A stretch of DNA of 32,420 bases, taken from assembly GCA_013152385.1 (NCBI GenBank), contig JAADGL010000062.1, positions 1 through 32,420 on the forward strand, read 5' to 3'. How positions within the stretch are numbered: position 1 is the first letter of the stretch; each line of letters opens with the position of its first letter. The notes beneath the pieces are model-generated. The model had not been told where the DNA came from and did no database searches. It saw nothing but the letters and a program-made list of their open reading frames with translations. Of this stretch, positions 11,091-26,755 are shown piece after piece. This stretch comes from Acidobacteriota bacterium. Lineage in GTDB: Bacteria > Acidobacteriota > Holophagae > Thermotomaculales > Thermotomaculaceae. The position numbers and the translations under genes were made by a program.

Positions 11091-11126
11091 CCAGTCTCCC
11101 GTTCGCTGAAGCGAACAGGAGACTGG
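11091..11126. repeat. Long hairpin in the intergenic region before the cus operon
   Basis: CCAGTCTCC (11091-11099) pairs with GGAGACTGG (11118-11126), then a single C.A mismatch, then GTTCGC/GCGAAC around a TGAA tetraloop: 15 paired positions of 16. No T-run follows on either strand. It abuts the activator-site palindromes directly. It could be a factor-dependent or processing hairpin for the upstream gene, or a DNA site; its outer arm resembles the neighbouring CCAGAAACTGG. Confidence 0.65.
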
Positions 11127-11162
11127 CCAGAAACTGGTGACCTGAAGTAAGAAACTGGTCAC
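11127..11162 (+). promoter_or_regulatory. Putative enhancer (UAS) pair for the cus sigma54 promoter
   Basis: CCAGAAACTGG (11127-11137, centre 11132) and AGAAACTGG within 11149-11162 (centre 11153) are 21 bp apart, two helical turns. They lie 98 and 77 bp upstream of the GG of the sigma54 promoter, the usual range for enhancer-binding activators. The 16-mer at 11124-11139 recurs exactly at 22013-22028 before the second sigma54 promoter. Confidence 0.6.
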
Positions 11163-11228: not shown

Positions 11229-11243
11229 TGGCACAACTCTTGC
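11229..11243 (+). promoter_or_regulatory. Sigma54 (RpoN) promoter of the cusCBA operon
   Basis: TGGCAC (11229-11234), five bases, then TTGC (11240-11243): the exact -24/-12 consensus with GG-N10-GC spacing. RNA should begin near 11255, leaving about 29 nt before ATG 11284. The remaining bases of the 304-bp gap hold the hairpin and UAS sites listed here and no credible gene. Confidence 0.85.
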
Positions 11244-11283
11244 CATTCATATACCTGAAAATACTGAACGGGGGGTGCGCAGG

Positions 11284-12702
11284 ATGCGAACCAGAGGTTT
11301 TATGACAATTATTATTGTTTGCTGGATTGGCTTGGCGGCTTTGAACACAACGGCACAGGAGGTTCTGCCGGGAAATTCGATTTCCGGGACGGATAATGAA
11401 TCAGCGACGGTGACGGATGCGCCGGGTGAAGACGCTCTCTCAATTCTGGTTGAGGATGCAATTAGAAACAATCCGGGGTTAAAGGCCCAACGGGCCCGGG
11501 TTATGGCGGCGGCCGAGGGGCCTTCGCAGGCAGGGGCATTGCCGGATCCAACCGCCGATGTGCAACTTATGATGCTCCCAGTCAATGGTGGTTTGAATGC
11601 CAGTGACGCGCTGACGAAGGGGGTGTCAATCGGGCTTACACAACATTTGCCGTTTCCCGGAAAATTGAAGCTGAAAAAGGAACGGGCGTTGCGTCAGGTT
11701 AATGTGGCCAGAATCCAATTGGCGGCGATGGAGAGTAAGCTGAGGGGGGAGGTCAAGTCTGCATCTTTCCGCTATGTTTTGTATAAGCGCCTTTTAGATA
11801 TCAATTATAAGGTTCAGGAAGCGCTGAAGGCCGCCATTGAGGGCTCAACAGCTGTTTACGCCTCCGGGAAGGGCAGCCAGACGGATGTGCTTCTGGCCCA
11901 GACCGCGTTGACCCGGGCCAGGGCCGACAGGGTGACTTTGACTAAACAATTGGAAATAGCCCTGGCGCGAATGGATGACCTTATTGGAATGCCGGTGGAT
12001 GGGGCGTTGGTTGACGGGGTTGAGATTTCGGAACCTGTCCCTTTGCCGAATCTGGATAAGCTGATTCAGGGTCTTCAGGATACCGCGCCAACGGTGCTGA
12101 GTGCCCGGGCTGAGGTTGATGTCCGGTCAGAAGAAGTTGCTATCGCTAAAAAGAATTTTGAACCGGACTTTTTTGTGAGAGGCCGCTTCCGGCACAATGA
12201 TGTGACCATGGGTGGCCATGATTATTTTACGGTGGGGGTGGGGATGACCCTTCCTTTCTTTCACCGGAAGAATCGCTACCGGCCCGCGTTGCTCCAGGCC
12301 AGAAAAACAATGGAGAGTGCCGGTGAGCAGGCCCTGAACGCGCTCAATGAGGCAAAATTCAGGGTAACGGAGGCTTATCAGACAGGAGTCCAGGACTTGA
12401 ATGTTTATACCCTTTACAAAAGCGGGCTGCTGATCCAGGCTGAGAAAGCATATCAGTCCGCGCTGGCCTCATACGCAGTCGGTGACAGCGATTTTATGAC
12501 GCTGCTGAGAGCCCTGACCAACTACTACAATTATCAATCTCAAGCATTGATGTCCAAGGTCGATTTCCATGTTTCTCTGGCCCGGATGGAGGCCGTACTT
12601 GGCTTTTCTCTCCAAAAAACAATTGAAAAGGAAATGGACAATTTACGTAACAATAAGAAAGGTAATGATGATCCGGCTGTTGAAACAAATCAACGCCCTT
12701 GA
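11284..12702 (+). CDS. TolC/CusC-family outer-membrane efflux channel
   Basis: Outer-membrane and periplasmic tunnel of a tripartite heavy-metal RND pump, expected to dock with the adaptor and inner-membrane pump encoded next. The 472 residues begin with a signal peptide (about 1-25, ending NTTAQ). Two OEP repeats follow, dominated by long amphipathic helices; helix-turn landmarks are EDAIRNNPGLKAQRARVMAAAEG and ALYQTG-like segments near the end of each half. No lipobox Cys is present, unlike E. coli CusC. The start is ATG 11284 after a G-rich ribosome site; GTG 11275 leaves no room for one. First gene downstream of a sigma54 promoter; a 31-codon ORF and the adaptor follow. Confidence 0.88.
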   Translation: MRTRGFMTIIIVCWIGLAALNTTAQEVLPGNSISGTDNESATVTDAPGEDALSILVEDAIRNNPGLKAQRARVMAAAEGPSQAGALPDPTADVQLMMLPVNGGLNASDALTKGVSIGLTQHLPFPGKLKLKKERALRQVNVARIQLAAMESKLRGEVKSASFRYVLYKRLLDINYKVQEALKAAIEGSTAVYASGKGSQTDVLLAQTALTRARADRVTLTKQLEIALARMDDLIGMPVDGALVDGVEISEPVPLPNLDKLIQGLQDTAPTVLSARAEVDVRSEEVAIAKKNFEPDFFVRGRFRHNDVTMGGHDYFTVGVGMTLPFFHRKNRYRPALLQARKTMESAGEQALNALNEAKFRVTEAYQTGVQDLNVYTLYKSGLLIQAEKAYQSALASYAVGDSDFMTLLRALTNYYNYQSQALMSKVDFHVSLARMEAVLGFSLQKTIEKEMDNLRNNKKGNDDPAVETNQRP

Positions 12703-12723: not shown

Positions 12724-12819
12724 ATGTACGCGATAAATGTTTTATTTTTGGATTATTCGAATTTTAGGTTTTTATCCCCTGTGGGGTACCGGAATTTTGA
12801 AGAGGAGGCACAACTGTGA
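12724..12819 (+). CDS. Possible 31-aa peptide between tolC and cusB
   Basis: A short open frame, ATG 12724 to TGA 12817, has AGGAGG 10 nt upstream, and its last codon and stop (CTGTGA) overlap the GTG start of the adaptor. This arrangement would couple its translation to the adaptor. The predicted peptide begins MYAINVLFLDYSNF and ends NFEEEAQL, with no Cys or His cluster and no recognised family. It may be a genuine small protein, a leader ORF keeping ribosomes near the adaptor start, or chance. Evidence is limited to the ribosome site and the overlap. Confidence 0.4.
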   Translation: MYAINVLFLDYSNFRFLSPVGYRNFEEEAQL

Positions 12820-14231
12820 ATAAAAAGGTTTTTATTCTGATTCTTATTGTCCTGTCGGCATTCCTGTTTGGCCATTATACTGTAAATAAACCCGGCCAGG
12901 AAAAGGTGAATGCTTCACAGGGAAATCCTGCCGCCCATGTGAAAAAGCAGCTTTATACCTGTGGAATGCACCCTCAGGTTATCCAGGATCATCCCGGGGA
13001 TTGTCCGATTTGTGGTATGACACTGACGCCGGTAAAAAATACCGATTCGAAGCTGCCACAAAAGGCCGGGAAAGGTGAACACAAAATCCTATACTGGCGT
13101 GCGCCGATGGACCCGACTTTTATTTCTCAAAAGCCCGGCAAATCACCTATGGGAATGGATCTTGTCCCGGTTTATGATGATGAAGTTTCTTCAGGAGATA
13201 TTACAATCAGTTCCGCTGTAGAGCAGAACATCGGTATCACAACAGCCGACGTTCAGTCCGGCCCACTCTTTCGGGCGATTAAAACCTACGGAACATCCAC
13301 ATGGAATGAGACAACCCTCTCGGCGATCAATACAAAAATCGACGGCTGGATTGAGAAACTCTATGTGAACGAGACTGGTCAGCGGGTACGCAAAGGGCAG
13401 CGGCTCCTCTCCATCTACTCACCCAAACTTGTGGCCACACAGCGGGAATATCTTGTGGCCCTGGATACGGCCCGCGCACTCCGGAAAAGTTCCGATAAAA
13501 CGGTGGCTCAAGGTGGCAAAGAGTTACTTGAGTCCGCGAGGAGACGGCTCAATCTGTGGGATATTTCTGCCAGACAGATTGAGAATCTTGAGAAAACACG
13601 AAAGGTTCAGAAAGAGTTGATTCTCTACGCCCCGAGCGGTGGAATTGTCATACACCGGGCCGTTGTTGCGGGAGATTATGTGAAGGCGGGGATGAACCTT
13701 ATAAAAATAGCTTCCCTGGATCCAATATGGGTAATCGGTTCCATCTATGAGTCCGATATTCCGGTGGTAAAAAAGGGAATGAAGGCGAAAATTACCTTTG
13801 ACAATCTTCCGGGGGAATCTTTCGATGGCCGGGTTGATTACGTCTATCCCTATGTCGAAGGGGCTTCCCGTACCGGTAAGGTTCGGATTGTAATTCCCAA
13901 TAAAGACGGGAAAATTCTACCTGAAATGTATGCTTCTGTGAGCTTCTTTGTTCAGCTTTCTCCGGACACACTCCAGATTCCATCCAATGCGGTTATCAGA
14001 GCCTCAACGGATGATACGCTGGTTTTTATCGCAAAAGGGGGTGGCAAATTTGAAGGCAGAAAGGTAATTCTCGGGCCGGAAGGGGATGGGCACCGGGTAA
14101 TGGTGAAGGCCGGTCTGGCTGCCGGTGAAAAGGTGGTGACTTCGGCACAGTTTCTCCTTGATTCCGAGAGTAACCTGAAGGCCGCCATCCAGAGCATGCT
14201 GGATTCCCAGGGCCGGGGGGGCTCAAAATGA
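12816..14231 (+). CDS. cusB: CusB-family RND periplasmic adaptor with N-terminal metal-binding domains
   Basis: Periplasmic adaptor (471 residues) linking the RND pump to the TolC channel and handing over Cu+/Ag+. It is anchored by an N-terminal hydrophobic helix (about 4-19). Next comes a heavy-metal-binding domain, YTCGMHP...CPICGMTLTPV (47-73). The CusB-type Met segment YWRAPMDP...PGKSPMGMDLVPVY (93-120) follows; it includes the Met residues that bind Cu+ in E. coli CusB. Then come barrel-sandwich and helical hairpin domains, with LYVNETGQRVRKGQRLLSIYSPKLV on the lipoyl-like part. The start is GTG 12816, 7 nt after AGGAGG. Its stop overlaps the pump start (ATGA), so the two are translationally coupled. 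Confidence 0.93.
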   Translation: MNKKVFILILIVLSAFLFGHYTVNKPGQEKVNASQGNPAAHVKKQLYTCGMHPQVIQDHPGDCPICGMTLTPVKNTDSKLPQKAGKGEHKILYWRAPMDPTFISQKPGKSPMGMDLVPVYDDEVSSGDITISSAVEQNIGITTADVQSGPLFRAIKTYGTSTWNETTLSAINTKIDGWIEKLYVNETGQRVRKGQRLLSIYSPKLVATQREYLVALDTARALRKSSDKTVAQGGKELLESARRRLNLWDISARQIENLEKTRKVQKELILYAPSGGIVIHRAVVAGDYVKAGMNLIKIASLDPIWVIGSIYESDIPVVKKGMKAKITFDNLPGESFDGRVDYVYPYVEGASRTGKVRIVIPNKDGKILPEMYASVSFFVQLSPDTLQIPSNAVIRASTDDTLVFIAKGGGKFEGRKVILGPEGDGHRVMVKAGLAAGEKVVTSAQFLLDSESNLKAAIQSMLDSQGRGGSK

Positions 14232-17200
14232 TTGGGCGCGTTATTGACTGGTCGATCAAGAACCGTTTTCTGGTTCTTATTTTTACAGCTCTTTTTATCG
14301 CGGCGGGGATTATGGTCATGCTGAATACGCCGGTTGACGCCATTCCGGACCTGTCGGATACTCAGGTGATTGTTTTTACAAAGTACCAGGGGCAAAGCCC
14401 TCAGGTTGTGGAAGACCAGGTGACATATCCCCTCACCACCGCGATGCTGGCAGTTCCCAAAGCCACTGTGGTCAGGGGCTACTCTTTCTTCAACTTTTCC
14501 CTGGTCTATATTATTTTCAAAGACGGAACCGATATTTACTGGGCGAGGAGCCGGGTTCTTGAATATCTGAACTATGTGACACCGAGATTACCCGCCGGAG
14601 TTGCTCCCCAGCTTGGCCCCGACGCAACAGGTGTCGGCTGGGTTTATGAATACGCCCTTGTGGACCGGAGCGGGAAGCATCGACTGGATGAATTGCGTTC
14701 TCTCCAGGACTGGTACCTGCGTTACCAGCTTCAAACTGTTCCGGGAGTGGCTGAAGTGGCCAGTATCGGTGGTTTCGTCAAGCAGTATCAGATTGAGATT
14801 GACCCTAATAAGCTGGCGGCTTATCACGTTTCCATGAGCCAGGTTAAACGTGCCATCCGCCGCTCCAACAGCGATGTCGGGGGCAGAATCGTGGAACGGG
14901 CGGAGACCGAATACATGGTGCGCGGTCTGGGCTATATCAAGAGTCTTGATGACCTGCGGAAAATCCCGGTTGGCCTTGACCCTGGCGGTGTGCCGGTTCT
15001 CCTGGGGCAGCTTGCTCAGGTTCACCTTGGCCCTGAACTGCGCAGGGGACTGGCTGACCTCAACGGCGAGGGCGACGTGGCAGGGGGCGTTGTCGTCATG
15101 CGTTTCGGTGAAAACGCGCTGAAAACCATTGAGGCGGTCAAAACAAAGTTGAATGAATTGAAAAAAGGTTTACCCGCCGGTGTTGAGATTGTGGAAGTGT
15201 ACGACCGGTCCGGTCTGATAGACAGAAGCATCAAATTTCTTAAAGATAAACTTATTGAAGAACTGCTCATTGTTTCACTGGTGTGCATTCTGTTTCTCTT
15301 CCATTTCAGAAGTGCCCTGGTTGCTATCTTTATGCTGCCACTGGGGGTCATGGCGGCACTCATTATCATGTATTTTCAAGGGCTTAACAGCAATATTATG
15401 AGCCTCGGAGGGATTGCCATCGCCATGGGCGCTATGGTGGATTCCGCGATTATCATGATTGAGAATGCGCACAAGAAAATGGAACACGGATACGATCCGA
15501 AGAATCACTGGACCATCATCGCGGAGGCTTCCAAGGAAGTGGGCCCAACCCTATTCTGGTCGCTCCTTGTGATTACCGTTTCTTTTCTGCCGATTTTTGC
15601 TTTGAACCAGCAGTCGGGACGTCTCTTCAAACCCCTCGCATTTACAAAAACGTATGCCATGGGTGCTTCCGCTTTTCTGGCGGTTTTCCTGGCGCCGGTG
15701 CTGATGGGATGGTTTATCAGAGGTAGAATTCGCACCGACGAAGAAAACCCGATCAATCGATTTCTTATCTGGATTTACCATCCCGTAGTGGATTGGGTTT
15801 TGAAACACAGACGTCTGGTATTGGTTCTCGCGTTTCTGGCAGTTGGCAGTACCATCTATCCGTTACGACATCTCGGCTCGGAATTTATGCCGCCGATCAA
15901 CGAAGGTGACCTGCTCTATATGCCCACGACCTTGCCGGGTATTTCCATCGGTAAGGCAAAGGAACTGCTGGAGCAGACCGACCGTATTATCAAGAAATTC
16001 CCGGAAGTAAAGTCTGTTTTCGGGAAAGTGGGCCGGGCGGAAACCGCAACGGATCCGGCACCGCTGACCATGATCGAAACGACGATTCAACTCTGGCAGG
16101 ATAAATCTCACTGGCGTGAAGTGACGGAAGAGCGGTGGTATTCCGGCTGGGCCCCCGGCTGGGCCAAAAAAGGTCTTCGTCTGATCTGGCCGGAAAAGAG
16201 GAAAATTACTCAGAAAGAGCTCATTGACAAGCTTAATAACGCTATCCAGTTCCCGGGGCTTGTCAATGCGTGGACGATGCCTATTAAGACCCGGATAGAT
16301 ATGCTCAGTACGGGAATCAAAACCCCGGTCGGTATTAAAATTATGGGTCCTGACCTTGATGTCCTTTCAAAATTGGCTAAACAGGTGGAAGCTGTTGTAA
16401 GGAAAGTGCCGGGAACCCGCTCTGTCATTGCTGAGCGCGTGACAGGGGGATATTACATGGACTACACAATTAACCGGGACGCGGCGGCGCGTTACGGGGT
16501 GACAGTGGGGGACATTCAGGACGTAATCCAGTCGGCACTGGGTGGAATGAACGTGACCCAGACGGTGGAGGGCCTTGAGCGCTATCCTGTGAACCTCAGA
16601 TACATGCGGAACTATCGGGATAATATGGATGCTTTGAAACGGGTTCTGATACCAACTCCCACCGGTGCCAGGATTCCGATTTCAGAGCTCTCATCATTTT
16701 CCCTCCACCAGGGCCCACCGGCAATTAAAACAGAAAACTCCAGGAAAACCGCCTGGCTCTATGTGGATCTGGAAAGCTCGGACATTGGTGGTTACGTTGA
16801 GCGCGCCAAAAAAACAGTTGACAGGGAAATTAAATTACCTGCCAAATACAACATTGTCTGGAGTGGGCAATATGAATACATGCAGCAGGCGAGAAAGCGT
16901 CTGATGGTGGCGGTACCGGTGACCTTTATCCTCATCCTGCTGCTTCTCTACTTCAATACCCACTCATTCAGCAAAGTCGGTATTGTGGTTCTCGCGGTTC
17001 CCTTTTCGCTGGTGGGTTCCTTCTGGCTTCTCTATATACTGGGATACCACCTTTCCGTGGCAGTATGGGTCGGGATTATTGCCCTGGCAGGGCTTGATGC
17101 CGAAACCGGAGTGGTAATGCTTCTTTATCTGGATCTGGCCCACGATCTCTGGGCAAGATTGGGGCGGATGAAAACGGTTGGAGATTTGAAGCAAGCCATT

Positions 17201-17461
17201 TTTCACGGGGCGGTTAAACGGATTCGGCCAAAAATGATGACAGTGGGTGCTATTGTTGCAGGATTAATTCCTATTATGCACGGCACCGGCACCGGCTCTT
17301 CCGTTATGAAGCGTATCGCGGCACCCATGGTGGGTGGCGTTGTTACATCCCTGTTGTTGGAGCTGGCAATCTATCCCGTGTTGTATTACTACCTGAAACG
17401 CCCGCACCTGGACCCATCACCGGAGCCGACTTCGGAAGAAATGGTACATGAATCTCACTGA
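14228..17461 (+). CDS. cusA: CusA-family heavy-metal RND efflux pump (Cu+/Ag+ type)
   Basis: Inner-membrane proton-driven pump of 1077 residues with 12 predicted membrane helices and two large periplasmic domains. The three Met that relay Cu+/Ag+ in E. coli CusA are all present in homologous contexts: Met565 (LLYMPTTLPG), Met615 (PLTMIETT) and Met692 (RIDMLSTG). An extra Met684 is also present. Proton-relay acids are Asp405 (GAMVDSAIIMIENAHK) and Glu959 (GLDAETGVVM). The motif lacks the DFG..D signature of zinc/cobalt pumps, which supports monovalent-metal specificity. ATG overlaps the cusB stop. A PII-like gene follows 36 bp downstream. Confidence 0.95.
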   Translation: MIGRVIDWSIKNRFLVLIFTALFIAAGIMVMLNTPVDAIPDLSDTQVIVFTKYQGQSPQVVEDQVTYPLTTAMLAVPKATVVRGYSFFNFSLVYIIFKDGTDIYWARSRVLEYLNYVTPRLPAGVAPQLGPDATGVGWVYEYALVDRSGKHRLDELRSLQDWYLRYQLQTVPGVAEVASIGGFVKQYQIEIDPNKLAAYHVSMSQVKRAIRRSNSDVGGRIVERAETEYMVRGLGYIKSLDDLRKIPVGLDPGGVPVLLGQLAQVHLGPELRRGLADLNGEGDVAGGVVVMRFGENALKTIEAVKTKLNELKKGLPAGVEIVEVYDRSGLIDRSIKFLKDKLIEELLIVSLVCILFLFHFRSALVAIFMLPLGVMAALIIMYFQGLNSNIMSLGGIAIAMGAMVDSAIIMIENAHKKMEHGYDPKNHWTIIAEASKEVGPTLFWSLLVITVSFLPIFALNQQSGRLFKPLAFTKTYAMGASAFLAVFLAPVLMGWFIRGRIRTDEENPINRFLIWIYHPVVDWVLKHRRLVLVLAFLAVGSTIYPLRHLGSEFMPPINEGDLLYMPTTLPGISIGKAKELLEQTDRIIKKFPEVKSVFGKVGRAETATDPAPLTMIETTIQLWQDKSHWREVTEERWYSGWAPGWAKKGLRLIWPEKRKITQKELIDKLNNAIQFPGLVNAWTMPIKTRIDMLSTGIKTPVGIKIMGPDLDVLSKLAKQVEAVVRKVPGTRSVIAERVTGGYYMDYTINRDAAARYGVTVGDIQDVIQSALGGMNVTQTVEGLERYPVNLRYMRNYRDNMDALKRVLIPTPTGARIPISELSSFSLHQGPPAIKTENSRKTAWLYVDLESSDIGGYVERAKKTVDREIKLPAKYNIVWSGQYEYMQQARKRLMVAVPVTFILILLLLYFNTHSFSKVGIVVLAVPFSLVGSFWLLYILGYHLSVAVWVGIIALAGLDAETGVVMLLYLDLAHDLWARLGRMKTVGDLKQAIFHGAVKRIRPKMMTVGAIVAGLIPIMHGTGTGSSVMKRIAAPMVGGVVTSLLLELAIYPVLYYYLKRPHLDPSPEPTSEEMVHESH

Positions 17462-17497: not shown

Positions 17498-17800
17498 ATG
17501 GAACAGAAGAAAATCACCGCGATTGTCCGCACCGGTCGTCTGGAAGCGGTGGAACAGGCATTACAGGCTGTCGGAGTGAAGGGCATTACCGTGACACGGG
17601 TTAAGGGCTACGGTGAACACACAAACTTTTTCAGCAGCGGCTGGTATTGCACACATGCCCGAATTGAGATTTACACGGAAAAGTCCCGGGTTCAGGAAAT
17701 TGCGAACACCATCATTGCTGCCGCGCAGACAGGAAGGGCTGGTGACGGTATCATCGCGATTCTACCTGTAGATCGCTTATACAGAATCCGGGAAGGCTGA
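17498..17800 (+). CDS. PII-like signalling protein associated with metal efflux (PII-NG type)
   Basis: Small cytosolic trimeric-type signal protein of 100 residues resembling GlnB/GlnK. PII landmarks are KITAIVRTGRLEAVEQAL at the N-terminus, VTRVKGYGEH before the T-loop, and AAQTGRAGDGIIAILPV...YRIREG at the C-terminus. It departs from nitrogen-sensing PII in three ways. The T-loop is about eight residues shorter. It lacks the uridylylated Tyr and instead reads FFSSGWYCTHARI with Cys51 and His53. The basic residue of GDGK(R) is Ile. A PII subgroup (PII-NG) is known to co-occur with heavy-metal RND operons, and this fits it. Likely role: regulatory partner of CusA, inferred from adjacency. Confidence 0.85.
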   Translation: MEQKKITAIVRTGRLEAVEQALQAVGVKGITVTRVKGYGEHTNFFSSGWYCTHARIEIYTEKSRVQEIANTIIAAAQTGRAGDGIIAILPVDRLYRIREG

Positions 17801-17870: not shown

Positions 17871-17946
17871 TAAAAAAAGCATTGGACAAGGCTTTATTCA
17901 ATAAATAGCCGGTAATTTTTTGAAACCCGAGAGGAATCGGATTCAT

Positions 17947-18132
17947 ATGACAGGGGATGAGCCTTTTTTCTGGACATTGCTGTTGATGATTATACTTGGA
18001 GGTTATGGCTTGGCGATTTTACAGATTTTTGTAGTGGTGGCGGTTGAACCGGAGCAGATTTTAACACACCATCGGGGGAATAGGGATGAACGGCAGATTT
18101 ATTTGAGGGAGCAGTTTGGTATTAATATTTGA
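17947..18132 (+). pseudogene. 3'-truncated copy of the 4-TM membrane protein gene at 19238
   Basis: The first 45 codons align without gaps to the start of the 4-TM protein at 19238. By my count 30 of 45 residues are identical, and the upstream TTCATATGAC is shared. Identity then stops abruptly after RGN, and a different 16-residue tail ends at 18132. Only the first membrane helix and the THxRGN loop remain; the HIH motif and helices 2-4 are missing. No frameshift explains this, since the downstream DNA is unrelated, so a deletion or partial duplication is likely. Its ribosome site (GAGAGGAA) is degenerate. It may still be translated as a 61-residue single-helix protein. Confidence 0.65.
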
Positions 18133-19086: not shown

Positions 19087-19237
19087 TGAACAGGAAGGGG
19101 AAGCGGGCACCGACGTGTGCTACAATAAATTCATTATAAAGCTGTATTGAAGTGGGTAAATTCCGGGATATTTCAGACTGGTTTATTTATACGGATTTCA
19201 AAAACCGGTTTTCTATGCCGGGGGGGAGTGGATTCAT

Positions 19238-19696
19238 ATGACAAGAGAAGAGCGTTTTTTCTGGACATTGTTGCTGATAATTATGCTGGTGGGCTATGGC
19301 TTCGCGATTTTACAGATTTTCGCGGCGGTGGGGTTCAGCCCCGGGCAGATTATGACCCATTACCGGGGCAATGAGGCGGAGATGCTTTCCGGCATGGCAT
19401 TCAAGGACCTTGCCCGTCTTTCCCATATTCATGCTTCGGGGATGAGCCTGCTGTTTATTCCCGCAGCCTTTATCCTGGCCCGCTATACGGGGCTCAAGCC
19501 CCGGTGGAAGCGGATGTTGCTCCTTGCGGGTTTCGGCGGAATTTTGCTGGACATTGCTTCCTGGTGGGGCCTTGTGTATCTCGGTGCCGCGGCACTTCCG
19601 CTGCTCTTTGCCGCCGGTGCCCTGTTCGGCATTGGAATGGCAGGTGCCTCTCTGCTCAGTCTGAAATGGATGTGGACAGCCGGGGGTGTGAAATGA
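19238..19696 (+). CDS. Four-helix membrane protein with HIH motif, unknown function
   Basis: The 152 residues form four predicted membrane helices (about 8-30, 65-83, 92-116, 118-144) and no signal peptide. Conserved-looking His residues are His41 in THYRGN and His63/His65 in LSHIHASG, at the periplasmic or cytoplasmic edge of helix 2. Such paired His could bind haem or copper. The layout resembles small multi-helix proteins found beside multicopper oxidases in delta-proteobacteria, but I cannot name a family. The ribosome site GGGGAG is about 10 nt upstream. Its stop overlaps the multicopper oxidase start (ATGA), implying coupled translation and a shared job. A truncated copy lies at 17947. 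Confidence 0.8.
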   Translation: MTREERFFWTLLLIIMLVGYGFAILQIFAAVGFSPGQIMTHYRGNEAEMLSGMAFKDLARLSHIHASGMSLLFIPAAFILARYTGLKPRWKRMLLLAGFGGILLDIASWWGLVYLGAAALPLLFAAGALFGIGMAGASLLSLKWMWTAGGVK

Positions 19697-21990: not shown

Positions 21991-22013
21991 TGATGAAAAG
22001 CAATTTGGCGGGT

Positions 22014-22049
22014 GGCCAGAAACTGGTGGGTGCGGCCTCAGTTTCTGGC
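22014..22049 (+). promoter_or_regulatory. Putative enhancer (UAS) pair for the second sigma54 promoter
   Basis: CCAGAAACTGG (22016-22026) and CAGTTTCTGG (22039-22048) have centres 22 bp apart and lie about 107 and 85 bp before the GG of the sigma54 promoter. Together GCCAGAAACTG...CAGTTTCTGGC also forms an 11-bp inverted repeat with a 13-nt loop, and TTTCTTTTT follows some bases later. A terminator role for the oxidase gene is the main alternative. The exact 16-mer shared with 11124-11139 favours a protein-binding site. Confidence 0.55.
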
Positions 22050-22126
22050 TGGTATTTCTTTTTCAATAAAGCGGTAATCTTCTGCATCACTAAGAAAATA
22101 AATGAGAAGTAAGCTTTTTTCTTCGT

Positions 22127-22141
22127 TGGCACAGTTCTTGC
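22127..22141 (+). promoter_or_regulatory. Sigma54 (RpoN) promoter of the FMN_bind-like/copper ATPase genes
   Basis: TGGCAC (22127-22132), five bases, TTGC (22138-22141): exact GG-N10-GC spacing. RNA is predicted to start near 22153, 35 nt before ATG 22188. Confidence 0.85.
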
Positions 22142-22187
22142 TCTATTTAAGTGTGTCTGAAATTTAGTGATCCGGGAGGATAAAAAA

Positions 22188-22730
22188 ATGAAAAGAATGG
22201 CAATGGTTTTTACGGTAATTTTAATGTTGACGCCTTTAATGGCCCATAACGGTACACAGATAAAAAAAATGAATGAAGTGCTGAAACTTCGCAATGCTGA
22301 AAATGTGCAGTTTAATGAAGTTAAATTACCGATGATGGTGAAATATGTTCAAAAGTTGAAAAAGGCAAAAAGCGGAGACTTGTCTTTTTTCCTGTTTTCG
22401 GCAAAAGGAGATTGGGGCCCGTTCAGTGGCTTGATTACATTGAAGGCCGGCACCATCGTGGCGGTGGATATTCTGTCTTTCACACGCCATGACTCGGATG
22501 CGTTTACAAAACCGGCTTTTCTTGGCCAGTTTACAGGTTTGAAAATGATGGCATTCCACAACAAAGAATTCAAGGCGGTTCCCGGAGAACCGGTGAATTT
22601 GAAAGCTCTCAAAGAAGCTGTGATGCTGGCGTTCCATAATGGAATGGGAATGATGATGAATCGGAAGGATCATTCCGGCGGCGGCATGAAGGGAATGATG
22701 GGCCACGGGATGATGCAGAATAATCAGTAA
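22188..22730 (+). CDS. Exported FMN_bind-like protein with Met/His-rich tail
   Basis: The 180-residue protein has a signal peptide (MKRMAMVFTVILMLTPLMA, about 1-19). The central region GPFSGLITLKAGTIVAVDI...KPAFLGQFTGLK matches the strand-loop pattern of FMN_bind (RnfG/NqrC-type) domains. Where those proteins carry the SGAT(S/T) motif with the flavinylated Thr, this one reads PGEPVNLKALKEAV, so covalent FMN is not expected. The last 28 residues are Met, His and Gly rich (HNGMGMMM, then HSGGGMKGMMGHGMM), a likely Cu+ ligand set. The start is ATG 22188 with GGGAGGA upstream; the GTG at 22167 has no ribosome site. First gene of the second sigma54 unit, before the copper ATPase. Confidence 0.75.
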   Translation: MKRMAMVFTVILMLTPLMAHNGTQIKKMNEVLKLRNAENVQFNEVKLPMMVKYVQKLKKAKSGDLSFFLFSAKGDWGPFSGLITLKAGTIVAVDILSFTRHDSDAFTKPAFLGQFTGLKMMAFHNKEFKAVPGEPVNLKALKEAVMLAFHNGMGMMMNRKDHSGGGMKGMMGHGMMQNNQ

Positions 22731-22853: not shown

Positions 22854-25328
22854 ATGAATCAACATTCAACCTGCAATAGCTGCAATGACCATGTTCACGG
22901 TAAATCGAAACCGGCTGTGATTAAAGACCCGGTCTGCAAGATGACGGTGGACCCGAAAAAGGCGGTACACCAGCGGTCCTATAACGGACAGGATTATTTC
23001 TTTTGCAGTGCTTCCTGCCTGGAAAAGTTCCGGGATAATCCGGCGAAATATGAAGCAGAAAGCGAAACAGCAAAGACTGAAACACCTGCAGGCGCAAAAT
23101 GGACCTGTCCCATGCACCCGGATATCCGCATGGATGGCCCGGGGAGCTGCCCCACTTGCGGGATGGCGCTGGAGCCTGTTATCCCGTCTGTTACGGCGAT
23201 ACCTGCAGGTACACAATGGACTTGCCCCATGCATCCGGAGATTCTGAAAGATGAACCGGGGAGTTGCCCCATCTGCGGCATGGCTCTGGAAGCCGTTACG
23301 CCTTCCGCAGAGGCGCCGGAGAGTGAAGAGCTGGCAATGATGACCCGGCGCTTCTGGTTTTCCGTTGTATTGACGATACCACTGGTATTGATTGCAATGG
23401 GGGATCTGCTTCCCGGCCAACCGATGTCAAAACTCTTTTCACCGGTTGTCCGGACCTGGATCGAACTGATTCTTGCCACTCCGGTGGCGATCTGGGCGGC
23501 ATGGCCTTTTTATCAGCGGGCAATCGCCTCTTTGAAAGGGTTTAATCTGAATATGTTCACCCTCATCGGGTTGGGTGTATCGGTGGCGTATGGATACAGC
23601 CTGATTGCCGCTCTGTTTCCCGAACTGTTTCCGGCCGCGTTTCGCGGTGAAGGCGGGCAGGTGTCTGTTTATTTTGAAGCTGCCGCTGTGATTGTGACGT
23701 TGATTCTGCTGGGGCAGGTGCTGGAAATCAGGGCTCGGACCCGGACAGGAGAAGCGATCCGTGCACTGCTGGGCCTTGCTCCGAAAACAGCCCGGATTAT
23801 CCGTGAGGATGGGACTGAAGAAGATATCCTTTTGGAAGAAGTGCAGACAGGAGATCGCCTTCGGGTGCGTCCCGGTGAGAAAGTGCCGGTGGACGGAGTT
23901 GTTGTGGATGGCGAGAGTTCGGTGGATGAGGCCATGATTACCGGTGAACCGCTTCCGGTATTAAAAAAAGCGGGTGATGAAATTGTCGGCGGAACCGTAA
24001 ATGGGAACGGCTCTTTGATCATGGTGGCAAAGAAGGTGGGGGCGGATACACTGCTTTCCCGGATTGTTGCCATGGTGGCGGAAGCTCAGCGAAGCCGGGC
24101 TCCGATTCAGAAACTTGCGGATACGGTTGCCGGATGGTTTGTTCCTGCGGTGGTATTGATTTCGATTATAACTTTTGCAGTGTGGGCACTATACGGGCCG
24201 GATCCGAAAATGGCCCATGCACTGGTCAATGCAGTCGCAGTTCTCATTATTGCCTGTCCCTGTGCGCTGGGCCTTGCAACGCCAATGTCCATCATGGTTG
24301 CCACCGGACGGGGTGCGACAATGGGGGTTTTGTTTAAAAATGCGGAAGCGATTGAACTGATGTATAAAGTAGATACTGTTGTGGTGGACAAGACCGGCAC
24401 TCTGACGGAAGGGAAGCCGGTGGTGACTGAGATTGTCCCTGCCGATGGACAAAAAGAAAATGGGATACTGGCTATCGCAGCCGCTTTAGAAGCCGGAAGC
24501 GAACATCCCCTCGCGGATGCAATTGTTAAAAAAGCCGGGGAAGCCGGAGTGGACAGCCTGTCTGTAACGGGTTTTGAAGCCGTACCGGGACACGGTGTAC
24601 TGGGCCGGATCAGGGGCGAAACCGTGGCATTGGGAAATGAGCGCATGATGGAACGGCAGGGTGTGGAGTTGTCCGCTTATCTCAAAAAAGCGGGGATCAT
24701 GCGGAAAAACGGCTGGACAGTTGTTTTTGTCTCTATAGGAGGCAAGTTTGCGGGGCTGATCGGTGTCGGAGACCCCATCAAGGAAACCTCGCAGGAAGCC
24801 ATCCGTCTGCTGCACAGGGAAGGTGTTCGGATTGTTATGCTGACCGGTGACAATGAACAGACAGCGAAAGCAGTGGGTGACAAACTCGGATTGGACGACA
24901 TTGTGGCGGGTGTACTGCCGGATCAGAAGGCGGATGTGGTGAAGAAACTGAAGGCTGAAGGCCATATCGTAGCCATGGCCGGTGACGGCATTAATGATGC
25001 CCCGGCACTGGCATTGGCTGATGTAGGAATTGCCATGGGAACCGGTACGGATGTAGCTATGGAAAGTGCCCATGTGACACTGGTGAAAGGTGATTTGAAC
25101 GGTATTGTCCGGGCACGGAAACTGAGTCGTGCAACGATGCGGAACATTAAACAGAATCTGCTTTTTGCATTCGGGTATAACTCTCTTGGTGTACCGGTAG
25201 CGGCGGGGATACTTTATCCCTTTTTCGGAATTTTACTCAGTCCGATTATTGCTGCCGCAGCCATGAGCTTTTCTTCTGTCTCTGTTGTGGCCAATGCACT
25301 GCGTTTGAGAAGAGCCCGTTTGAACTGA
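22854..25328 (+). CDS. copA: Cu+-exporting P1B-type ATPase with YHS and two heavy-metal-binding domains
   Basis: Inner-membrane ATPase (824 residues) that expels cytosolic Cu+. The N-terminus holds a His/Cys-rich leader, a YHS domain (24-66, KDPVCKMTV...[12 protein letters not shown]), and two near-duplicate heavy-metal-binding domains (83-109 and 122-148, each WTCPMHP...PGSCP.CGMALE). The classical MxCxxC domain is absent. The core has TGEP (actuator), the metal site CPC (Cys468, Cys470), the phosphorylated Asp512 in [22 protein letters not shown], and late-helix AFGYN and MSFSSVSV. This full set fits P1B-1, Cu+/Ag+. GGGAGGAAG precedes the ATG. The gene lies between the exported Met/His protein and a SHOCT protein. 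Confidence 0.95.
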
Positions 25329-25870: not shown

Positions 25871-26755
25871 ATGAAACGAATGACAATAATGTTGACAACG
25901 CTGATAATGGTACTGACTGTAACGGTGGGAACATTTGCAAACGGCAATGGAACCGGCATACATATGAATCAGGATGGCATGGAAATGGAACACAATATGG
26001 TGCTGCCGCATATTGTGCTGGGTGGCGGCTATGAAACCGAGCTGGTGTTCATGAACCCCGGCAGCGGACAGGAAGTCAGCGGAACCATTTATTTTTATGC
26101 CCAGAACGGTTCTGAACTTAGTGTAATGTACAACGGGGTTTCCCGGTCTTCCATTGAATTTACCGTGCCCCAGTCAGGTTATTTTTCTCTGAAACTTGGA
26201 ACTCCGGGGGATGAACAGCAAATTGCGTGGGCGGTGTTTATCAATTCCGGTGATCAGCCGGATGCGGAGGATCAGGATATGTATATGGGGGATCACCTGT
26301 TTACAAGTATTTTTTATAAACGTTTTGATACAAATTCCGACAGATTGGCTACACAGGTGGGCGTAATGGGAATGCGGTTTATGTCCGGCATGGGTATGGG
26401 CTATGGCATGATGGTGAGAAATGACGCGCACAACATCACGGGTTTTGCCATTGTTAATACGTCGGATGCGGAATTGACCGCTGCCCTGACGCTGAAAAAC
26501 CCGGATGGCACCACTTTTGCCGAGCGGAACCTTACCCTTCCGGCCGGGAACCAGATGGTGGATGTCCTTTCTGATTTCTTCAGCGGAACAGCTGACATTT
26601 CTACCTTTGAAGGGACTATGGAAATTCGCAGTGATGTGGAGGGATTGGTGCCCCTGGGTCTGATCAACACCGATGGCATTCAAACCGCTATTCCCATGAT
26701 TATGATTCCGGATTCCTATGACCACAGCGGGAACATGGGCGGCGGAATGATGTAA
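25871..26755 (+). CDS. Exported Met-rich two-domain beta protein, unknown function
   Basis: The 294 residues have a signal peptide (about 1-23, ending GTFAN). A Met/His segment, HMNQDGMEMEHNMVLPH, follows. Two similar beta-sandwich-like domains come next, each with the pattern F(A/V)xxN(P/T)(G/S)...T.xLxNxxG...L..xG. Domain 1 covers about 50-125 and domain 2 about 185-275. The linker MGMRFMSGMGMGYGMMV is a second Met cluster, and the protein ends GNMGGGMM. Three Met clusters suggest Cu+/Ag+ binding or buffering in the periplasm or at the surface. The paired domains resemble repeat proteins seen in Acidobacteriota, but I cannot assign a named family. GGAGG precedes the ATG by 6 nt. Confidence 0.8.
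   Translation: MKRMTIMLTTLIMVLTVTVGTFANGNGTGIHMNQDGMEMEHNMVLPHIVLGGGYETELVFMNPGSGQEVSGTIYFYAQNGSELSVMYNGVSRSSIEFTVPQSGYFSLKLGTPGDEQQIAWAVFINSGDQPDAEDQDMYMGDHLFTSIFYKRFDTNSDRLATQVGVMGMRFMSGMGMGYGMMVRNDAHNITGFAIVNTSDAELTAALTLKNPDGTTFAERNLTLPAGNQMVDVLSDFFSGTADISTFEGTMEIRSDVEGLVPLGLINTDGIQTAIPMIMIPDSYDHSGNMGGGMM

Follow-up and report, generated by a model that had tools for sequence, protein, structure and literature searches.

In E. coli and Salmonella, the ZraSR-ZraP system (HydHG) combines a metal-linked kinase with an activator of the NtrC family, which serves sigma54 promoters provided with upstream sites (PMC7657598, PMC3844500). The enhancer (upstream activator) sites of sigma54 promoters usually lie approximately 70-150 bp upstream (PMC3844500). 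Efflux of the cusCBA type is placed under an extracytoplasmic sensor kinase in the CusRS, CopRS, and PcoRS systems (PMC10100754, PMC10141476), with copA of E. coli being under CueR, separate from the Cus regulator (PMC10100754). In Myxococcus xanthus, CorE, an ECF sigma factor responsive to copper, has among its targets a multicopper oxidase and a copper ATPase (PMC10141476). The regulators named by a review on copper signalling are those of the CusR/CopR type, the one-component regulators CueR, CsoR, and CopY, and CorE; the text of this review does not contain the term "NtrC" (PMC10141476). No direct precedent for a sigma54-controlled cus or cop operon was found in the open-access literature.

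The stretch of DNA analysed here (the window, 32,420 nucleotides) belongs to the 2.57-Mb draft genome of a deep-sea-type acidobacterium, and the relatives with which it was compared are mostly draft metagenome genomes. Two copper-export units are present in the window (Table 1), which the earlier note on this DNA had proposed to form one regulon joining periplasmic and cytosolic export. We hold it probable, at roughly 0.83, that both are indeed governed by a single sigma54/two-component copper regulon, in which a kinase-activator pair encoded on contig C20 would command export by CusCBA from the periplasm and by CopA from the cytosol. This reading is drawn from sequence, namely from the promoter elements, the paired sites, their conservation and rarity, the single RpoN, the orthology of the kinase and the activator, and their linkage to the same site and to cusCBA-copA in the relative G085.

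Table 1. Features of the two copper-export units and of the candidate regulatory pair
Feature	Location	Strand	Remark
Unit 1 site A, predicted activator site (CCAGAAACTGG)	11127..11137	+	from sequence and alignment
Unit 1 site B, predicted activator site (TAAGAAACTGG)	11148..11158	+	21 bp from A
Unit 1 sigma54 -24/-12 element, TGGCAC-N5-TTGC (TGGCACAACTCTTGC)	11229..11243	+	
CusC-type outer-membrane efflux protein	11284..12702	+	ATG start inferred from G090 orthologue
CusB-type adaptor with HMBD	12816..14231	+	family/domain match
CusA/CzcA family RND pump	14228..17461	+	family match
PII-like protein, downstream of cusA	17498..17800	+	same place in G090
Unit 2 site A, predicted activator site (CCAGAAACTGG)	22016..22026	+	kept in G091, G092
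Unit 2 site B, predicted activator site (CCAGAAACTGA on - strand)	22038..22048	-	22 bp from A
Inverted repeat from unit 2 sites A and B	22015..22049	.	T-rich tract after it here and in G091, absent in G092
Unit 2 sigma54 -24/-12 element, TGGCAC-N5-TTGC (TGGCACAGTTCTTGC)	22127..22141	+	
Exported Met/His-rich protein, 180 aa, first gene of unit 2	22188..22730	+	no family above threshold
CopA-type copper P1B ATPase, YHS and HMBD domains	22854..25328	+	family/domain match
C20 histidine kinase, window genome	L083:2837-4600, contig C20		orthologue of G085 kinase
C20 NtrC-family activator, window genome	L083:4558-5937, contig C20		orthologue of G085 activator

For the CusC-type gene, the GTG at 11275 is an alternative possible start. 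One distant homologue of the 180-aa exported protein matches FMN_bind at E=0.18, which is below threshold, and the predicted structure of the protein (mean pLDDT 47) has a low-confidence strand order compatible with that fold. The gene at 19238 has a decayed copy of its 5' end, 143 bp long, between the PII-like gene and a SHOCT gene (17939-18081 versus 19230-19372, 79% identical), a trace left by duplication or rearrangement in the island. An Rfam search of the window gave no match.

Both units carry, at gene-proximal distance, the GG-N10-GC of a sigma54 promoter inside YTGGCAC-N5-TTGC, with transcription starts predicted at approximately 11255 for unit 1 and 22153 for unit 2. The unit 2 element, which the earlier note had placed ahead of the genes for the exported Met/His protein and the copper ATPase, was found there together with both genes. 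The exact TGGCAC-N5-TTGC occurs three times in the window (11229, 22127, and 26506) against 0.09 expected, and none of 100 shuffled windows reached that number. The third occurrence, 26506-26520, lies within the ORF 25871-26755 and is not accompanied by a motif pair; a near copy of it in the G091 orthologue (L116:5561) suggests that it is explained by protein coding. RpoN is present as a single copy in each of nine family genomes, that of the window included.

Upstream of each sigma54 element stand two CAGAAACTG palindromes with centres 77-107 bp away, that is, 98 and 77 bp before the -24 GG in unit 1 and 107 and 85 bp before it in unit 2, which in both units falls inside the usual range given above. 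The 16-mer TGGCCAGAAACTGGTG, which had been noted as common to the two promoters, is exact at 22013-22028 and 11124-11139 and is the sole repeated 16-mer in the window apart from those of the decayed gene copy. Its description as a 16-bp enhancer core is borne out as far as the repeat is concerned, but the unit conserved across species comes only to about G-Y-CAGAAACTG-R (ten sites, in five of these promoters), leaving a number of the 16 letters incidental. Similarly, the architecture attributed to both promoters is shared in that the palindromes are paired, 21-22 bp apart and at similar distance, but not in their orientation, which is head-to-tail in unit 1 (pitch 21 bp) and head-to-head in unit 2 (pitch 22 bp).

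It has to be noted that the motif pairs alone are not enriched, since AGWWWCT-N13..16-AGWWWCT occurs 5 times in the 2.57-Mb genome versus 6 times for a backward control. The significant point is not the pair count but the coincidence of pairs with exact sigma54 sites: two of the five pairs sit approximately 100 bp 5' of two of the 12 exact sigma54 sites found genome-wide, both at copper operons. The other three pairs comprise two inside ORFs and one (C12:34218) outside any long ORF found. The exact 11-mer CCAGAAACTGG has 12 copies in the genome and is near a sigma54 element only at the two places in the window. Among the sites tested, no further genome place had both a motif pair and a sigma54 element, and in the scanned regions the two were joined only at copper loci.

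The comparison of orthologous loci, which the earlier note had put forward as a check, found the palindromes and GG-N10-GC kept for unit 1 in four congeners (the window genome, G090, G091, and G092) and for unit 2 in three (the window genome, G091, and G092, with the sigma54 element kept in L116 and L117). In the alignments of both units, the spacers have diverged, whereas next to no change is seen in the sites and the -24/-12 boxes, which constitute the most conserved upstream blocks. This conservation persists where, in unit 1, the pump genes or, in unit 2, the oxidase gene upstream have been replaced or lost. In G091 and G092, the unit 1 promoter (L276 and L277; G091:C79 and G092:C109) occupies the same chromosomal place, after 2-oxoacid oxidoreductase genes and a 349-aa gene, and precedes a different, distantly related cusCBA set (462/633/1295 aa in G091 versus 475/471/1077 in the window genome). 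In these two genomes the pump has been exchanged under a fixed control region, and that the promoter was kept before a different cusCBA is what selection on the promoter itself would predict. The replacement cusCBA is of the type that adjoins the kinase-activator pair in G085.

In G090, a single locus unites cusCBA, a PII-like gene, and copA and lacks the genes for the exported protein and the oxidase; it is split in the assembly, the contig with the unit 1 promoter ending inside cusC and that of the remaining genes beginning inside cusC. This arrangement behind a unit 1 promoter supports the proposal that a single regulon covers export from periplasm and cytosol alike, and so does G085 with its single divergent site region in front of cusCBA-copA.

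There is no activator gene within the window, and its genome encodes 12 sigma54 activators. In G085, a family member assembled as a single contig, a kinase and an NtrC-type activator are encoded divergently from cusC-cusB-cusA-copA, and the 266-bp gap between them holds TTCAGAAACTGAA, a weaker CAGTTTTTG 34 bp away, and sigma54-like elements facing both ways. An exact CAGAAACTG appeared in 8 of 5000 shuffles of this gap (0.16%); the best motif-model score was matched in 7 of 600, which is less striking than the exact 9-mer. The C20 pair of the window genome and the G085 pair are reciprocal best hits, in the activator tree, the four congeners' C20 activators and that of G085 form a clade (support 100/100), and there is hardly any difference between the recognition helices (SPTTLRKKIADY and APNTLRKKIADY). 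The C20 activator has the composition of the NtrC family, with a receiver, a sigma54-interacting AAA+ domain carrying GAFTGA and Walker A, and a Fis-type HTH.

Among 396 Acidobacteriota genomes, the kinase sensor was found convincingly only in G000, G091, G092, and G085, with a kinase fragment at a contig edge in G090, and the genomes with the kinase, this fragment included, coincide exactly with those family members that were found to have the sites. Distant matches in G117 and G325 were rejected, their loci being without cus or activator genes and the proteins resembling chemoreceptors or unrelated sensors. The extracytoplasmic part of the kinase carries HC...C-x4-C-x-C (H33, C34, C88, C93, and C95), which is invariant where sequence exists and is a plausible copper site. 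A C20-type sensor-activator pair thus probably controls both promoters. Counted against this assignment are that the C20 genes are unlinked to the window, that no site pair stands at the pair's own locus in the window genus, and that relatives of OmpR-type metal regulators, below the family cut-off, occur elsewhere in the genome. To these are added the weak points of G085, i.e. the weaker second site, the 34-bp spacing, the weaker sigma54 matches (15.6 and 12.9 on our own rough matrix), and GSYTGA instead of GAFTGA in the activator.

The proposed model follows known NtrC-type activators as regards activator binding, phosphorylation, copper as the signal, the transcription starts, and the mechanics. 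Under copper stress, the extracytoplasmic kinase would most likely phosphorylate its NtrC-family partner, dimers of which would bind the two CAGAAACTG palindromes approximately 100-130 bp 5' of the transcription start. At a spacing of two helical turns, the two neighbouring dimers would assemble the AAA+ hexamer, which by looping of the DNA would meet the sigma54-RNA polymerase poised at GG-N10-GC; opening of the promoter would then be driven by ATP hydrolysis. The output of unit 1 would be CusCBA, exporting copper from the periplasm, and that of unit 2 the exported Met/His protein and CopA, exporting it from the cytosol. It is rather likely that this amounts to a previously undescribed copper-sensing system, in which a kinase with the HC...C-x4-C-x-C motif, an NtrC-type activator, and sigma54 run both export routes and the sites outlast the pumps exchanged behind them.

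The inverted repeat of unit 2 could instead be an intrinsic terminator of the oxidase gene that resembles unit 1 by coincidence, and both in the window and in G091 TTTCTTTTT comes after its hairpin (-24.5 kcal/mol, z -2.9). We consider this very unlikely, as G092 keeps both sites without the T-run, G091 keeps both without the upstream oxidase gene, and the head-to-tail sites of unit 1 are unable to form the same hairpin; the sites are therefore the constant, with the hairpin having at most a side role. The repeat also went unlisted in a terminator scan and lacks the combination of a GC-rich hairpin with a conserved T-run. The earlier note had allowed for the repeat being only a terminator and unconserved, which is the opposite of what the congeners G091 and G092 show: since sites and boxes are kept despite gene replacement or loss, the repeat is not merely a terminator, and it may double as one in the window. 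A separate strong hairpin just 5' of the unit 1 sites (11091-11126), kept in G090 and G091 with a different stem sequence and largely lost in G092, probably terminates the gene before it. Still more improbable is a recent duplication of the promoter region that would have left the common 16-mer behind without selection for it. The 16 identical bases would suit such an origin, but beyond the sites themselves the likeness of the two promoters is no greater than by chance, and the orientation and spacing of the sites differ between the units yet are constant within each unit across species.

More weight, though still a small share of the probability, is given to the alternative that the sigma54 promoters and shared sites are real but answer to a different one of the roughly 12 activators, or to a signal other than copper, such as general envelope stress. 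Besides the C20 activator, seven more are conserved across the four congeners, and ZraR is itself held by some to answer envelope stress and not zinc only (PMC7657598). Against this, the C20 type alone adjoins, in the relative G085, a cus-cop operon that has the same site, and alone matches the genome distribution of the sites. The activator on contig C32 was rejected as a candidate, its own promoter having a different palindrome (CGTCA...TGACG) and its gene being missing from G091. The regulon under the C20 pair remains our preferred reading.

The C32 locus (L076:5896-10090, divergent L076:10308) is another sigma54 circuit, with TGGCACTGTTCTTGC after paired CGTCA-N4-TGACG-like palindromes; its genes encode a membrane protein, a kinase, and an activator, run divergently from those for small exported Gly/His-rich proteins, and adjoin apparent arsenic-resistance genes. 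On contig C19, a sensor kinase (L082:4879-6465) has haem-c-like CXXCH motifs in its extracytoplasmic part; the adjoining genes are Fe-S and membrane oxidoreductase-like, together with that of a highly conserved activator.

Compared with the described systems, the proposed regulon resembles ZraSR in its kinase and NtrC-family activator, its sigma54 promoters with upstream sites, and an exported protein among the targets. It differs from ZraSR in that the targets are copper pumps instead of zraP and zraSR (plus mgtA) and in that the activator is unlinked to them, and the C20 pair falls below the curated cut-offs (ZraR 351/760 bits, ZraS 146.5/479 bits). With AtoSC and NtrBC it shares the REC, AAA+, HTH_8 order, and the best NCBIfam score of the C20 activator is to AtoC (401 bits), below the AtoC and NtrC cut-offs; the binding palindromes of the AtoSC/NtrBC type differ from the one here. 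The likeness to CusRS, CopRS, and PcoRS lies in the extracytoplasmic sensor kinase over cusCBA-type efflux, whereas in place of a CopR/CusR-type regulator there is an AAA+ NtrC-type activator with a Fis-type DNA-binding domain and a sigma54 promoter. No CusR/CopR regulator exceeded the TIGR01387 cut-off in the family genomes, none was listed in contig C40, and ORF inspection found none of this type in the window. CorE likewise is a route to copper resistance through an alternative sigma factor, but there the ECF sigma factor itself senses copper, without an enhancer-binding protein. If the proposed model is true, one tight sigma54 circuit that can be fully switched off would serve both compartments, as opposed to the separate regulators of E. 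coli, and with the activator, the kinase, and the site named it is directly testable. Standing outside the curated ZraSR and CusR/CopR families, the system is like ZraSR and NtrBC in its mechanism and like CusRS in its purpose.
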